From Fimbriiglobus ruber (GTDB taxonomy: Bacteria > Planctomycetota > Planctomycetia > Gemmatales > Gemmataceae): a DNA stretch of 64,000 bases. The translations under genes were made by a program, and so were the position numbers. This document shows positions 27,442 to 60,672 of the stretch, one piece after another. The notes beneath the pieces were generated by a model that searched no databases, was not told the origin of the DNA, and saw only the letters and a list, made by a program, of their open reading frames with translations. The DNA lies in assembly GCF_002197845.1 (NCBI RefSeq), contig NZ_NIDE01000005.1, positions 372,001 to 436,000 on the forward strand, read 5' to 3'. Positions within the stretch are counted from its first letter, which is position 1. Every line of letters begins with the position of its first letter.

Positions 27442-27682
27442 AACACAAATCTCCTGGTAAACGGCTTCGGCGATTATCTCAGAGAAACCTGGATCGGTAT
27501 AGGCCTCTCGATCGTTTCACAGTGACCCGTTTCTGTTCGGTTCGTGACGGCGATCGAATCCAATCCGCGGGGTGAAATCTCTCTGACGCAGTGAAACGCA
27601 GGGGGTTTCCGCCTTCGGGTCCGGAAAGCACTCGCGAGTTCTTTGTGGGGCGTTCGACCCACCCGAGATCTGCTTGAAAAAG

Positions 27683-27740
27683 TGCGGCGTTCCCGCTCTC
27701 CTTGGGTTTACCACAACTCACGGACCGAAGGAACGCCGCA
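27683..27740 (+). promoter_or_regulatory. Start-codon-occluding hairpin before ISKra4 transposase (copy 1)
   Basis: An 11-bp perfect stem pairs TGCGGCGTTCC (27683-27693) with GGAACGCCGCA (27730-27740) across a 36-nt loop. The last paired base is the A of the transposase ATG, and the AAGGA ribosome-binding site overlaps the 3' arm. The same geometry with compensating base changes is found before the second ISKra4 copy at 50358-50416. Confidence 0.7.
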
Positions 27741-29254
27741 TGACTCGTTCTATCCCGATGGCCCTGGTCGCGGCTACGTACGGGGTCCCGACCGCCCCCG
27801 CCCATCCGGACCTCGCACTCGCCGATGTCTTCGCGGCGTCCCGGGAGCGGCTCCAGGCACGGGGCGATGCCTTCCGCAGGGATCCCATCACGCCGGCCCG
27901 GACGCATCAGTTCGAGCAGGATGTCCAGGCCGCGTTGCGGGAGATGGGCCGGCCGTTCGTCGAGTTCGCGTACAACCACGTCGAACCGGCCGACGGGGAG
28001 GAGTCGTCGCGGCATGCCCAGTACGAACACGAGTCCTACACCCGGGTCCGCCGGGCGACCCCGCAGAACGCGTGGACGGTGTTCGGCCCCATCCGGGTCC
28101 GGCGGTTCGGATACCGGCCGTCGCAGGCGGGCGAGCCGATGCTGTTCCCGGCGGCCGTCCGGCTCGGACTGGTGTCCGGAGCGAGTCCGGCCCGGGCGTG
28201 CCGGGCGTGCGAACTGTTGGCCGAAGCCGGGGCGACCCAACACCGGGTGCGGGCCCGACGGCGGGCCGACTACGGGGTCGGCTGGGGGGTCAAGAAATTA
28301 CGCCAGGTGAGCCGCGCGATCGCGGACGACAGGGCCACGTTTCGGCACGACGCCCAGGTCGAGCAACTGCTCGCGTGGGTGGCGGCGGCCGACGCCTCGA
28401 CCGGTCGCCACAAGCCCGTCCTGTGCGCCGGTCGGGACGGCATTACCCTCCGCCTGCGGGTGACGAAGGGCAGCCTGTACGAGGTCGCCAGCACGGGCAC
28501 GATCAGCGTGTACGACCGCCGCGGCCGTCGCCTGGGGACCGCGTACTTGGCGTACACGCCCGAACCCGGCCAACCGACGATGACCGGGGCGTTGACGGAC
28601 GCGATCCGCGACGTCCTCACCCAGTGGGAGGGCGGTCTCCCGCGGTTGTGTTACGTGACCGACGCCGGGGACAACGAGACGGGGTATTACGAGGCGGTCC
28701 TGCGGGGGATGATCCACCCGCGGACGGGACAGGTGGTGGCGTGGGTCCGGGTGATCGATTACTACCACGCGAGTGGGCGGGTGTGGCTGCTGGCCGGGGT
28801 CTTGTTCGCGGACGCCGGGCGTGCGGCCCGGTGGGCCCACACGATGCTGCGGTGGCTGCTCACGCCGGGTGGCGTGAACCGGGTCCTACACTCGGCCGCA
28901 GCCGTGCGCGCGATCCGGACACTGACCCGGACCCAGACGAAGGAGTACCGGACGGCATACGACTACCTGCGGTCCCGAATGAGTCACATGGACTACGCCC
29001 GGTATCGGCGGGTCGGTGTTCCGCTGGGCAGTGGGGTCACCGAGGCGGCGTGCAAGACGGTGTTCACCCAGCGGCTGAAGCTCAGCGGCATGCGATGGGG
29101 GAAGGACGGCGCGCAGGCCATCTTGAACCTGCGGGTGATCCTCCTGAGCGGTGTGTGGGACGTCGTGTATCAGCGGGTTCTCGCGGCCTGGACGCTGCCT
29201 GTGATGGGGGGTCACGCCGATTCGCATCAAAAGACGCTGGAAATCGCCGCGTAA
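27740..29254 (+). CDS. ISKra4-family transposase (copy 1, intact)
   Basis: This is a 504-aa protein from ATG 27740 (MTRSIPMALVAATYG), directly after the hairpin. Family motifs are visible in order: AGRDGITLRL, TVYL/TAYLAYTPE, CYVTDAGDNETGYY, VIDYYHASGRVW and GSGVTEAACKTVFTQRLKLSGMRW..GAQAIL, with the acidic residues expected of a DDE-type enzyme (D in VTDAGD, D in VIDYYH, E in GVTEAACK). It is full length with no stop, so probably functional. Element ends were not resolved; the conserved upstream string CTTGAAAAAGTG may be near the left end. The second copy at 50416 is clearly related but diverged along its whole length. Confidence 0.88.
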   Translation: MTRSIPMALVAATYGVPTAPAHPDLALADVFAASRERLQARGDAFRRDPITPARTHQFEQDVQAALREMGRPFVEFAYNHVEPADGEESSRHAQYEHESYTRVRRATPQNAWTVFGPIRVRRFGYRPSQAGEPMLFPAAVRLGLVSGASPARACRACELLAEAGATQHRVRARRRADYGVGWGVKKLRQVSRAIADDRATFRHDAQVEQLLAWVAAADASTGRHKPVLCAGRDGITLRLRVTKGSLYEVASTGTISVYDRRGRRLGTAYLAYTPEPGQPTMTGALTDAIRDVLTQWEGGLPRLCYVTDAGDNETGYYEAVLRGMIHPRTGQVVAWVRVIDYYHASGRVWLLAGVLFADAGRAARWAHTMLRWLLTPGGVNRVLHSAAAVRAIRTLTRTQTKEYRTAYDYLRSRMSHMDYARYRRVGVPLGSGVTEAACKTVFTQRLKLSGMRWGKDGAQAILNLRVILLSGVWDVVYQRVLAAWTLPVMGGHADSHQKTLEIAA

Positions 29255-29296
29255 TCCGTGCGATTAAGAGTCTTTACCCAATCCGCGCCCAAATCC

Positions 29297-50210: not shown

Positions 50211-50357
50211 TAACGCTCCACGGATAGAGTGACTCCGATACAGGGTGAGCAATCGCTAGGCGAACGGGTGCGATCTCTCCCCTGCGCATGAACCAGCCGC
50301 TTTTTCGCCGCCGTCATCCGCAACGTACTCTGGGTTGGCGTTGGCGACTTGAAAAAG

Positions 50358-50416
50358 TGTGGCGTCCTTGGTTCAACGAGCTGTTACCACACAGTTTCGC
50401 CGGCCAGGACGCCACA
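50358..50416 (+). promoter_or_regulatory. Start-codon-occluding hairpin before ISKra4 transposase (copy 2)
   Basis: TGTGGCGTCC (50358-50367) pairs perfectly with GGACGCCACA (50407-50416) across 39 nt. The last paired base is the A of ATG 50416, and AGGA of the ribosome-binding site lies in the 3' arm. Compared with copy 1, a C-G pair has become T-A and one base pair is missing from both arms, so pairing is kept. Confidence 0.7.
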
Positions 50417-51942
50417 TGACGTACTCTCTGCACTTGCTCGCCATCGCGGCTACCCTGGGAGGCACCCGGTCGGCCGCTTCCCCGCCCGTTCGTCGCGACG
50501 CCGAGGAGGCACTCGCCCCGGCATGGACGGCCCTAGTCCAACTCGTCCGCGACTTCGCCGCCGCCGCCGCTTCACCCGCCGCGTCCTTTGCCCTGGAACA
50601 ACAACTCCGGGATCGCCTGCGCGAACTGGGGCGGGTCGGCCTGGAGTGGGCGTACAACCACATCGAGCCCGAGGGCGTCGACGCGTTGCCGTCGCACGTG
50701 GTGTTCGAAGCCGCCCCCTACACTCGGCTCGGCCGCAAGACGCCGCAGGTCGTCGCCACTCTGTTCGGCAAGGTGTCACTGTGGCGGACCGGGTATCGCC
50801 CGACCCAGCGGACCGGCGACCCGACTCTGTTTCCCCGGGCCCACCAACTGGGAATCGTGGCCGGGGCCACCCCGGCCGTGGCCGAGCGGGCTGCGTACGA
50901 TCAGTCCGAGGCCGGGGCCACCCAGCGTCGCACGCTACGGCGGTTGCGGGATGATCACGGCCTGACATGGGGGGTCAAGACGTTGCGCGGGGTGGTCGAA
51001 CGGGTGGCCGCCGGGATGGCCGCCGGACGGCACGACGAGCAGGTGGCGAACGTCCTGGAACTGCTGGAACAGGCGTGGGTCGGGACGGGCCCGCACAAGC
51101 CGGTCCTGAGCGTCGGCCGGGACGGCATCTCGTTCGGCCGGCCGGTCCGCGGGGGCACCGTGTTCGAGGTGGCGACCGCGGTGACGGTGACCGTGATGAA
51201 CCGCCGCGGGCGGCGCCTGGGGACGGTGTACCTGGCGCACACGCCCGAGTCGAAGCAGGGGACGATGAGTCGGAACCTGACCCGCCTGGTGACGGCCGTG
51301 TTGCAGGCGTGGGAGCGGCCGCGGCCGCGCCTGTGTTACGTGACCGATGCGGGGGACAACGAGGCGGCGTATGACGCCACCGTCCTGCGGCCGATGCGGC
51401 ACCCGCGAACCGGGGACCGACTCGCCTGGGTGCGGGTGGTCGACTACTACCACGCGAGCGAGCGACTGTGGGCGATGGCGGGGGCGCTGTTCGGTCCGGG
51501 GCGGCAGGCCCAGACCTGGGTGCGGCGGATGCAGACACTGTTGAAACGGCCGAACGGCATCCGCCGGGTCCTCAACTCGGTGTCGGTGCATCGCAGCCGT
51601 CAGACGCGGAAGGGGAAGAGGCGAACGGTGTTTGACAAGGCGTACAACTATCTTCTGAGGAAGCGGACGCCGTTCCTGCGATCTGCCGCGTACCGGCGAG
51701 TGGGCATCCCGTGCGGCCGCGGAGTCACCGAGGCCGCGTGCAAGACGATCGTCACACAGCGGCTGAAGTTGTCGGGCATGCGGTGGACCAAGGGCGGGGC
51801 GCAGACGATTCTCGACCTGCGGGTTCTCAACCTCAGCGGCGTGTGGGCCGAGGCGTATCAACGGTTGCTCGGAGGGGTCCAAAGCGTCCATGTGCCAACC
51901 TACGCCGCCAAAGTGCCAGACGACCTCAAAATCGCGGCGTGA
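50416..51942 (+). CDS. ISKra4-family transposase (copy 2, intact)
   Basis: This is a 508-aa protein from ATG 50416 (MTYSLHLLAIAATLGG), placed directly after the hairpin; the upstream in-frame start at 50359 would lie in the hairpin. It has the same motif order as copy 1: VGRDGISFG, TVYLAHTPESKQGTM, CYVTDAGDNEAAYD, VVDYYHASERLWAM, GRGVTEAACKTIVTQRLKLSGMRWTKGGAQTILDLR. Copy 1 has GSGVTEAACK where this has GRGVTEAACK. There is no stop or frameshift. It lies between the microsatellite gene and the 3' end of the convergent sedolisin gene, 55 bp from the latter. Confidence 0.88.
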   Translation: MTYSLHLLAIAATLGGTRSAASPPVRRDAEEALAPAWTALVQLVRDFAAAAASPAASFALEQQLRDRLRELGRVGLEWAYNHIEPEGVDALPSHVVFEAAPYTRLGRKTPQVVATLFGKVSLWRTGYRPTQRTGDPTLFPRAHQLGIVAGATPAVAERAAYDQSEAGATQRRTLRRLRDDHGLTWGVKTLRGVVERVAAGMAAGRHDEQVANVLELLEQAWVGTGPHKPVLSVGRDGISFGRPVRGGTVFEVATAVTVTVMNRRGRRLGTVYLAHTPESKQGTMSRNLTRLVTAVLQAWERPRPRLCYVTDAGDNEAAYDATVLRPMRHPRTGDRLAWVRVVDYYHASERLWAMAGALFGPGRQAQTWVRRMQTLLKRPNGIRRVLNSVSVHRSRQTRKGKRRTVFDKAYNYLLRKRTPFLRSAAYRRVGIPCGRGVTEAACKTIVTQRLKLSGMRWTKGGAQTILDLRVLNLSGVWAEAYQRLLGGVQSVHVPTYAAKVPDDLKIAA

Positions 51943-51997
51943 TCATGAGCGCCTGAGTGACCGCCCCCGCCACAACTTATGACGCCTGCGGCAAAAC

Positions 51998-59267: not shown

Positions 59268-60672
59268 TCACGCCGCCGCGCGCCGGGCTCGCAGCAGCAT
59301 GGTCGGCATCAAATTGCTCGTCAGCGCGTGGAGCAACGCGGTCGCCCGCACTTTTTTCAACCCTCGGACCAACAATTGTTGTAATCCGTTGTTCCGCACC
59401 CGCGCATTCACCCACTCGGCCGTCGAAGCCCGTCGCTTATAGATCGCTTTGGCTTCCTCCGTCCCCATGTGGACCCGCCAGGTCGCGACGCCCGGTGTGT
59501 CGTTCCGCTTGGGCCGATACGGGTCGTTCCCTTTGGCTTGCTCGGTCGCCGCGTTCCGCACCGGGGCATAGACATCAATCCCGTGCTGCGTCTGCACCGC
59601 CTCAATGTCCGCGAGCGTCGCGAAGTCCCCGTCGACCAGCATCCGCGCCGGCTTCTGCTCGTACCGCTCGTCGATCTGCTCGACCATCGGCAGCATCTGG
59701 CCGCTATTACCTCGGCATGAAATAAGCTCAACAATTGAAGCACAAAAGCACGGGGAGCCGCGTTCGTTTCGGATTTAAATTGTTGAGCTTATTTCATGCC
59801 GAGGTAATATCGGACCCCACATTCCCCACGTCGACCGCTACCACGATGCCGCTGTCCGTATCGGTCGCGTACTGGATGTTGAACGCCGGACGGGTGCCCC
59901 CATCTCCCATCCGCATCGTGCGGGCGTCCGGGTCGGTCGTCGAGGCCCGCGGTTCCTTCCGCTTGGCCCCCTTCTCCGCGATCATCTCCCGCTGCCGATC
60001 CGCCCATTCCTGCCGTTGTGCCAACGCGTCCTCGATGCGCTCCTGCCGTTCCCGTGCGGCGCGTTCCCGCGCCGCCTGTTGCCGACGGCTCGCCGCCCCC
60101 GCGTCGTCGTCCACCTGGCCACGCAACGTCTCGACCTGCGCCTGCGCCTGCGCCAAGCATTCCTGGAGCGACGCCTCGCGCCGGAACGTGTTGGCCCCCG
60201 CGTGGGCCCGCACCCGCACCCCATCCTGAGCGACTTCGTGGAGTGGGACCAATCCTTCGTTCACCAACGTGGCCACGGTCTGGGTCAGCAATCCGTCGAG
60301 GAACTCGCCGTGGAGGCTGCGGAAATCCGACAGGGTGTGATAGTTGACCGATACGCCCCCGCAGAGCCATTGGTAGAACAGGTGCGTTGCGGTCAGTCGG
60401 TCGAGTTCCCGCGCGCTGCCAACGCCGTGGGTGGTCGCCAGTATCCACAAGCTCAAGGAGATGCGGGGGTCGATCGGAGGGGACCCGGCATGGCCGTGAA
60501 CGGCCTTGATGCGTACGAGCAGCGGCGACAGATCGAGTTGCGCGACATACGCCCAGATCACGCGGGCGTGGTCATCGGGTTGGAGCAGTTGATTCAACGA
60601 CCGTTCGTCGATCTGCATTTGATCGCGCTGGGCCAGACGGAGGCGCGGCGCGGGAGGGGATGGCGTACTCAT
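59268..60672 (-). pseudogene. IS1182-family transposase split by a 101-bp MITE
   Basis: ATG 60672 begins MSTPSPPAPRLRLAQRDQMQ, then the IS1182 N-terminal domain (LDLSPLLVRIKAVHGHAGSPPIDPRISLSLWILATTHGVGSARELDRL.., YHTLSDFRSLHG). A Glu/Arg/Gln-rich coiled coil follows, then the start of the catalytic region (FNIQYATDTDSGIVVAVDVGNVGSD). The MITE at 59707-59807 interrupts here. Beyond it the frame resumes as SGQMLPMVEQIDERYEQKPARMLVDGDFATLADIEAV.. to the stop at 59268. Deleting the MITE and one TA gives GSDSGQMLPMVEQ with no other lesion, so this insertion is recent and the host IS was intact before it. Confidence 0.92.
59707..59807. mobile_element. 101-bp IS630/mariner-type MITE
   Basis: Thirty-base perfect terminal inverted repeats (59707-59736 and 59778-59807; outer bases TTACCTCGGCATGAAATAAG) flank a 41-nt centre. 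TA is duplicated at 59705-59706 and 59808-59809, the target signature of IS630/Tc1-mariner elements. It has no coding capacity and sits inside the IS1182 transposase gene. Confidence 0.92.

Follow-up and report, generated by a model that had tools for sequence, protein, structure and literature searches.

An inverted repeat under selection at the transposase start of ISKra4-like elements, probably a leader hairpin that lowers translation

In the tnpA leader of IS200, an inverted repeat sequesters the ribosome-binding site (RBS) and lowers transposase translation, as reported in PMC12594629. This stem-loop of the IS200/IS605 group is the same kind of RBS-hiding leader inverted repeat as the one we find in ISKra4-like copies of Fimbriiglobus ruber; the IS200 effect has been tested experimentally, whereas we infer that of the ISKra4-like leader. 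The IS200 transposase, of the HUH and not of the DDE type, is unrelated to the ISKra4-like transposase.

Next, the 5'-UTR of tnp in ISPpu9 of Pseudomonas putida has a structure that is thought to bury the RBS. When this structure was weakened, a fusion went up 26-fold; the proposed opener of the structure is an antisense RNA (PMC8450116). Translation of ISPpu9 starts at +245 and two small RNAs are described, whereas in the ISKra4-like copies the stem begins some 60 nt ahead of the start codon and small RNAs are not known. ISPpu9 belongs to the IS110 family, differing in this from ISKra4. In IS10 and IS50, leader structures act against read-through transcripts. That control follows the same logic as the read-through idea considered below, but a transcription start inside the stem is only a candidate here. 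The available part of PMC5006887, on IS10 and Hfq, does not treat read-through control by the IS10 leader.

The ISKra4 family (p-MULT 4, Mutator-like) is described in PMC3942029, which reports that several elements of the group insert upstream of sigma-A promoters; the word “hairpin” is absent from its main text. No earlier description of such a leader in ISKra4 elements was found in the literature, most subscription journals being outside the scope of the search. The traits of RBS-sequestering leaders that are present here are an inverted repeat with the RBS and the start in or at its 3' arm, and selected pairing. With these leaders, RBS hiding would reach a family of Mutator-like insertion sequences, and a comparison of relatives supports selection on the pairing.

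The window analysed is a 64,000-nt stretch of F. ruber contig NZ_NIDE01000005.1 (assembly GCF_002197845.1), and all positions given are those of this window (Table 1). It holds two ISKra4-like copies whose transposases are 48% identical. For both, ISKra4 is the nearest transposase family in NCBIfam, with matches to NF033572 that stay under the curated cut-off of 205 (copy 1, E 5.8e-38, 131 bits; copy 2, E 1.9e-37, 129 bits). Neither transposase matched in a Pfam search.

Furthermore, the host genome (12.36 Mb) contains nine ISKra4-like copies of 1720 bp (L002-L010) with identical ends, leader and transposase. By their sequence identity, these represent a recent expansion in this genome. They start with GGGTGAAGTCTCTCT and finish with AGAGAGACTTCAACC, have terminal inverted repeats and are flanked by 8-bp target duplications that differ between copies. 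Terminal inverted repeats with a short target duplication, a trait of ISKra4, are thus present in the genome copies and in copy 1 of the window. In the flanks of copy 2, read directly, no matching target duplication was seen.

Table 1. Positions of the ISKra4-like copies and of their leader features in the window.
Feature	Position	Strand	Basis or remark
ISKra4-like element, copy 1	27570..29279	+	ends from the 1720-bp copies and the flanking duplication
Element ends, copy 1			left GGGTGAAATCTCTCT, right ...GTCTTTACCC
8-bp target duplication AATCCGCG, copy 1	left 27562..27569, right 29280-29287	.	read directly
Candidate -35 box TTGAAA, copy 1	27674..27679	+	adjoins the 5' arm; best-scoring promoter-like position, below coding controls
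5' arm, copy 1, GTGCGGCGTTCC	27682..27693	+	read directly, folding, alignment
Loop region, copy 1	27694..27729	+	36 nt between 8-bp cores, with inner helix; folding, alignment
Candidate -10 box TCTCCT, copy 1	27697-27702	+	spacer of 17 to TTGAAA
Shine-Dalgarno-like AGGA, copy 1	27729-27732	+	starts one base ahead of the 3' arm
3' arm, copy 1, GGAACGCCGCAT	27730..27741	+	runs into the ATG at 27740; read directly, folding, alignment
Transposase gene, copy 1, ISKra4-like, 504 aa	27740..29254	+	NF033572 match
ISKra4-like element, copy 2	50266..51968	+	right end degenerate; placed by the 1720-bp copies
5' arm, copy 2, GTGTGGCGTCCT	50357..50368	+	read directly, folding, alignment
3' arm, copy 2, AGGACGCCACAT	50406..50417	+	opens with AGGA, runs into the ATG at 50416; read directly, folding, alignment
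Transposase gene, copy 2, 508 aa	50416..51942	+	NF033572 match

Both window copies carry a stem of 11-12 bp in which the A of the ATG is paired with a T (T27683-A27740 and T50358-A50416), so direct reading bears out what the initial annotation had said of this base. The same annotation placed the RBS inside the 3' arm, which is the case for the AGGA of copy 2 but not quite for that of copy 1, one base of which lies before the arm. Its statement that the stem buries the ATG is too strong: only the first one or two bases of the codon are covered, and the AUG is often predicted to be open. A gapless alignment of the two stems shows differences at three pairs, each of which is compensated (C-G/T-A, T-A/C-G and C-G/T-A); the earlier count of one compensated pair and one pair lost from both arms survives as a gapped alternative.

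In terms of folding energy, copy 1 reaches -36.6 kcal/mol (z -3.97), with 0 of 200 shuffles as good. Copy 2 alone is unremarkable (-36.1, z -1.79), because 13 of 200 shuffles match it. Counted from the left end, the stem lies 112 bp inward in copy 1, 91 bp inward in copy 2, and 53-114 bp inward in the 30 of 34 leaders of the wider set (see below) that have a recognised left end; this distance removes the stem from the terminal repeats, of which it might have been a part.

Strong stems are not rare in this GC-rich 64-kb window. A stem score of at least 30 is reached by 2.9% of 8-base windows on the plus strand and 3.5% on the minus strand. Among the 41 ORFs that are 200 aa or longer, 3 reach it at their first ATG, against an expectation of about 1.3; these three are both transposases and a doubtful start at 444, overlapped by a long palindrome. 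Since about 3% of windows reach such a score, the two window copies alone prove little, and the weight of the stem rests on its relatives.

Relatives were sought by protein search in the window's own genome, its family, class and phylum, and in genome contigs. Matches were present in 4 of 95 genomes of the family and, in the class, in 11 of 397 genomes at 1e-60 and 40 of 397 at 1e-25. Across the phylum, at E 1e-60, the own genome was the only one of 392 with a match. From the genome contigs the best 80 of 258 loci were kept, and among these the contigs nearest the query are mostly labelled Planctomycetota. Searches of viral contigs for relatives and of Rfam gave nothing useful.

There are 91 loci at least 38% identical to the clade, some fetched more than once, and 66 of them hold one of 34 extracted stem leaders (the contig part being the best 80 of 258). 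The 25 loci without an exact extracted leader are L033, L038, L054, L166, L017 and L046, together with 19 that lack a scorable N-terminus, their protein match starting at residue 126 or later. The sequence shared by L033, L038, L054 and L166 has an open frame, with the stem absent near its candidate starts; L017 has lost its leader, and the leader of L046 was read in the longer stretch L193. By eye, no stem was seen in the broken copy L196, and in L197 the start codon is ATC and the stem is broken at several pairs. The copy in L193 is itself interrupted right after its first codons by a further insertion, which looks like a transposon and is bordered by a short CTTA repeat.

Dropping L015, L016, L023 and L030, whose stem and loop are identical to others, leaves 30 distinct leaders. 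Their sources are three families of the class and metagenome-assembled genomes labelled Spirochaetaceae (L049) and Deltaproteobacteria (L053), labels that are fallible in such assemblies. The leaders were cut at the already seen stem, so its presence in all 30 holds by construction.

Eleven pairs were scored, three outer and eight core, in an edited alignment (3' arm of L061 re-registered by hand, outer 3' bases left-justified). Across the 30 leaders 297 of 330 cells are paired, against 98-168 of 330 in slid registers. On a tree built from the leaders themselves there are 12.5 double compensations, compared with 0.8 +/- 0.9 expected when each column's changes are moved to random branches, and none of 1000 such simulations reaches the observed value. 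The eight core pairs are 92.5% paired in the unedited MAFFT alignment, and their covariation score is above 500 of 500 shuffles and 6 of 6 slid registers.

As for individual pairs, all four Watson-Crick types occur at the one that adjoins the core (C-G 9, T-A 8, A-T 7, G-C 2, with C.A in the remaining 4). In an R-scape-like G-test it ranks first of 728 column pairs, with 0 of 300 simulations as high. For the predicted pair that comes next the expectation is about 0.8, and none of the nine others is significant. In this test, covariation is therefore individually significant at one of the eleven pairs and not at the other ten.

On this comparative basis, the inverted repeat at the transposase start is real and selected. 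The stem, its position at the start codon and its compensatory evolution in the 30 leaders are established. Selection on RNA pairing had been claimed, and its pairing half is upheld by the tree; the RNA half is no more than likely, because a DNA palindrome would covary too. Read on the plus strand, the stem has more C.A mismatches (20 cells, 10.0 events) than G.U pairs (13 cells, 6.7 events), and among the eight inner pairs the figures are 12 and 2. The loop between the cores measures 36-54 nt and takes ten different lengths.

A separate observation concerns the subclade of L032, L039, L193 and L198, where a C.A mismatch is kept at the same position, next to the core. Two positions further out, L032 has a T-A pair, and the other three have C-G.

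Different stems are found near the start in other ISKra4 lineages. The copies L075 and L077, from Deltaproteobacteria metagenome-assembled genomes, have a stem of TCGGCCCTCC/GGAGGGCCG type one base ahead of the ATG, and in L189 the stem CGTCAGGCTTC/GGAGCCTGACG stands immediately ahead of it. In a Streptomyces group of 11 copies, eight have strong stems of GGGCTCT/AGAGCCC type two to four bases before the start. One copy (L200) has a weaker stem, and in two the start was not located. Windows that equal the eight strong stems in score make up 0.4% to 6% of these GC-rich Streptomyces loci. A conserved loop resembling TCGAAGGTGCCAACC was noted by eye inside the leader stem of L152, L163, L200-L203, L205 and L207.

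Of 13 ISKra4 transposases encoded on plasmids, 3, all of one Streptomyces group, have a strong stem at the annotated start; seven cyanobacterial copies, one of Thiodictyon and two others of Streptomyces (L157, L161) do not. An inverted repeat at a start in the Endozoicomonas copy L080 was rejected, as it falls within the coding region. We also rejected the claim of a stem throughout the family: no convincing one was seen in other ISKra4 subgroups from the window's own genome (18 stretches, L129-L146), in the seven cyanobacterial plasmid copies or in the Rickettsia copies, most of the starts in these subgroups being uncertain. Given this patchy occurrence, the start-site stem is confined to some lineages, with unrelated sequences.

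The inverted repeat is probably a leader hairpin that lowers transposase translation, most likely by acting in the sense mRNA to reduce initiation. Its position at the start codon, with a Shine-Dalgarno sequence that lies within the 3' arm or adjoins it, points to this effect. The 3' arm, which ends at the start codon, would pair with a 5' arm that starts about 60 nt upstream, and in a transcript with both arms the site would be closed to the ribosome. A further step, with less support, is that transcripts from a promoter of the element would begin in the loop and, having no 5' arm, would escape, in which case mainly read-through RNA would be silenced.

Structure predictions were compared in the 34 leaders after deletion of the first 14 nt. 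The predicted openness of the Shine-Dalgarno goes up in 32 of them; copy 2 (L026) passes from 0.02 to 0.34, copy 1 only from 0.30 to 0.44. In L051 and L061, removal of the 5' arm is predicted to leave the Shine-Dalgarno unopened. Predicted openness of the AUG shows no consistent trend with this removal across the 34 leaders.

The same inverted repeat could also belong to the minus strand, which we consider unlikely. There, the stem and an adjoining A-run (a U-run on the opposite strand) would stop antisense transcription where the transposase gene begins, whether the structure is a simple terminator or forms the 3' end of an antisense RNA. A occupies positions -1 to -4 before the stem base in 22-28 of 30 leaders, and each plus-strand C.A, the mismatch in excess of plus-strand G.U, is a G.U on the minus strand. 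However, the 36-54 nt between the cores make a long loop for a terminator, a scanner allowing loops of 3-8 finds none in the window copies, the A-run is not seen in the Streptomyces copies, and the position at the start codon is left unexplained. A DNA palindrome bound by the transposase or by a host repressor, which is quite improbable in our estimate, would show symmetric covariation as well and agrees with mismatch types that lack a sense-RNA bias, but the stem is apart from the terminal repeats and the separation of its arms takes ten values; a loop that varies this much fits an RNA hairpin better than a protein in phase on both DNA arms. A transposase site repeated at both ends was tried and rejected: in 19 elements the arm agrees with the right end at 6-8 of 11 letters and with the interior at 8-9 of 11, the right end being no better, although this is a weak test, as the interior is longer and favoured by chance. 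Chance or shared ancestry alone is hardly credible. It would account for the folding energy of copy 2, and for a score that about 3% of windows here attain, but not for compensations that no tree-based simulation reproduces, nor for the unlike arms that other lineages carry near the start. Two observations speak for translation: the variable arm spacing, and the position at the start codon in Streptomyces, a lineage that lacks the A-run.

If the hairpin does lower translation, its use by the element can be read in two ways, each of which we put forward tentatively. In a strict form of read-through silencing, the -35 box lies outside the 5' arm and the -10 box inside the loop, so that the element's own mRNA would be translated and incoming RNA would not. 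A candidate -35 TTGAAA is present in both window copies, and in 22 leaders (the 30, thinned by hand) the mean promoter score is best with the -10 at +12 from the core, 0.83 against -3.1 overall, the best site falling at +11 to +13 in 12 of 22; 300 dinucleotide shuffles peak at -1.20 and 6 of 22. Ahead of the stem base there is also a T at -7 (23/30) and a G at -6 (20/30), followed by an A-rich stretch, and the insertion of several ISKra4-group elements upstream of sigma-A promoters, reported in PMC3942029, makes incoming transcription plausible. However, conserved coding controls score higher (means of 1.08 for 13 sequences and 1.73 for 16) and their best sites cluster too (7/13 and 9/16), which leaves the promoter-like boxes only suggestive, and a promoter scanner finds no canonical promoter in either window copy. 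Eight of 30 leaders have their best -10-like hexamer (TATTnn in six) at -11/-12 relative to the stem base, which suggests a start at the stem base, and in seven annotated Streptomyces copies an ORF lies just upstream of the stem, which would therefore be intercistronic there. These two observations count against read-through silencing and in favour of a general brake, where the element's own mRNA would start at or before the stem base and carry the hairpin; translation would then be always low, until the stem is opened by some factor such as an antisense RNA, Hfq or a translating ribosome. ISPpu9 is reported to work in this manner (PMC8450116). Against a general brake, the -11/-12 motif is the best site in 0 of 9 leaders from the window's own genome. 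It is somewhat doubtful that the 5' arm serves at once as half of the hairpin and as most of a 16-18 bp promoter spacer, an arrangement by which only RNA begun by the element would be translated and which would be kept across several families, perhaps phyla. If true, the RNA would report its own start point through promoter spacing coupled to pairing, in Mutator-like insertion sequences, and a start within the loop would be a compact way for the element to ignore the transcription of neighbouring genes.

Lastly, other inverted repeats were noted in the window. The palindrome at 365-451 has arms of about 36 bp and a short AT-rich centre, closely precedes a gene whose product probably has a signal peptide, and looks like a repeat or MITE-like element. 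Another inverted repeat, at 59705-59809, has arms of 32 bp and lies close to a minus-strand ORF (59794-60672) that is transposase-like.
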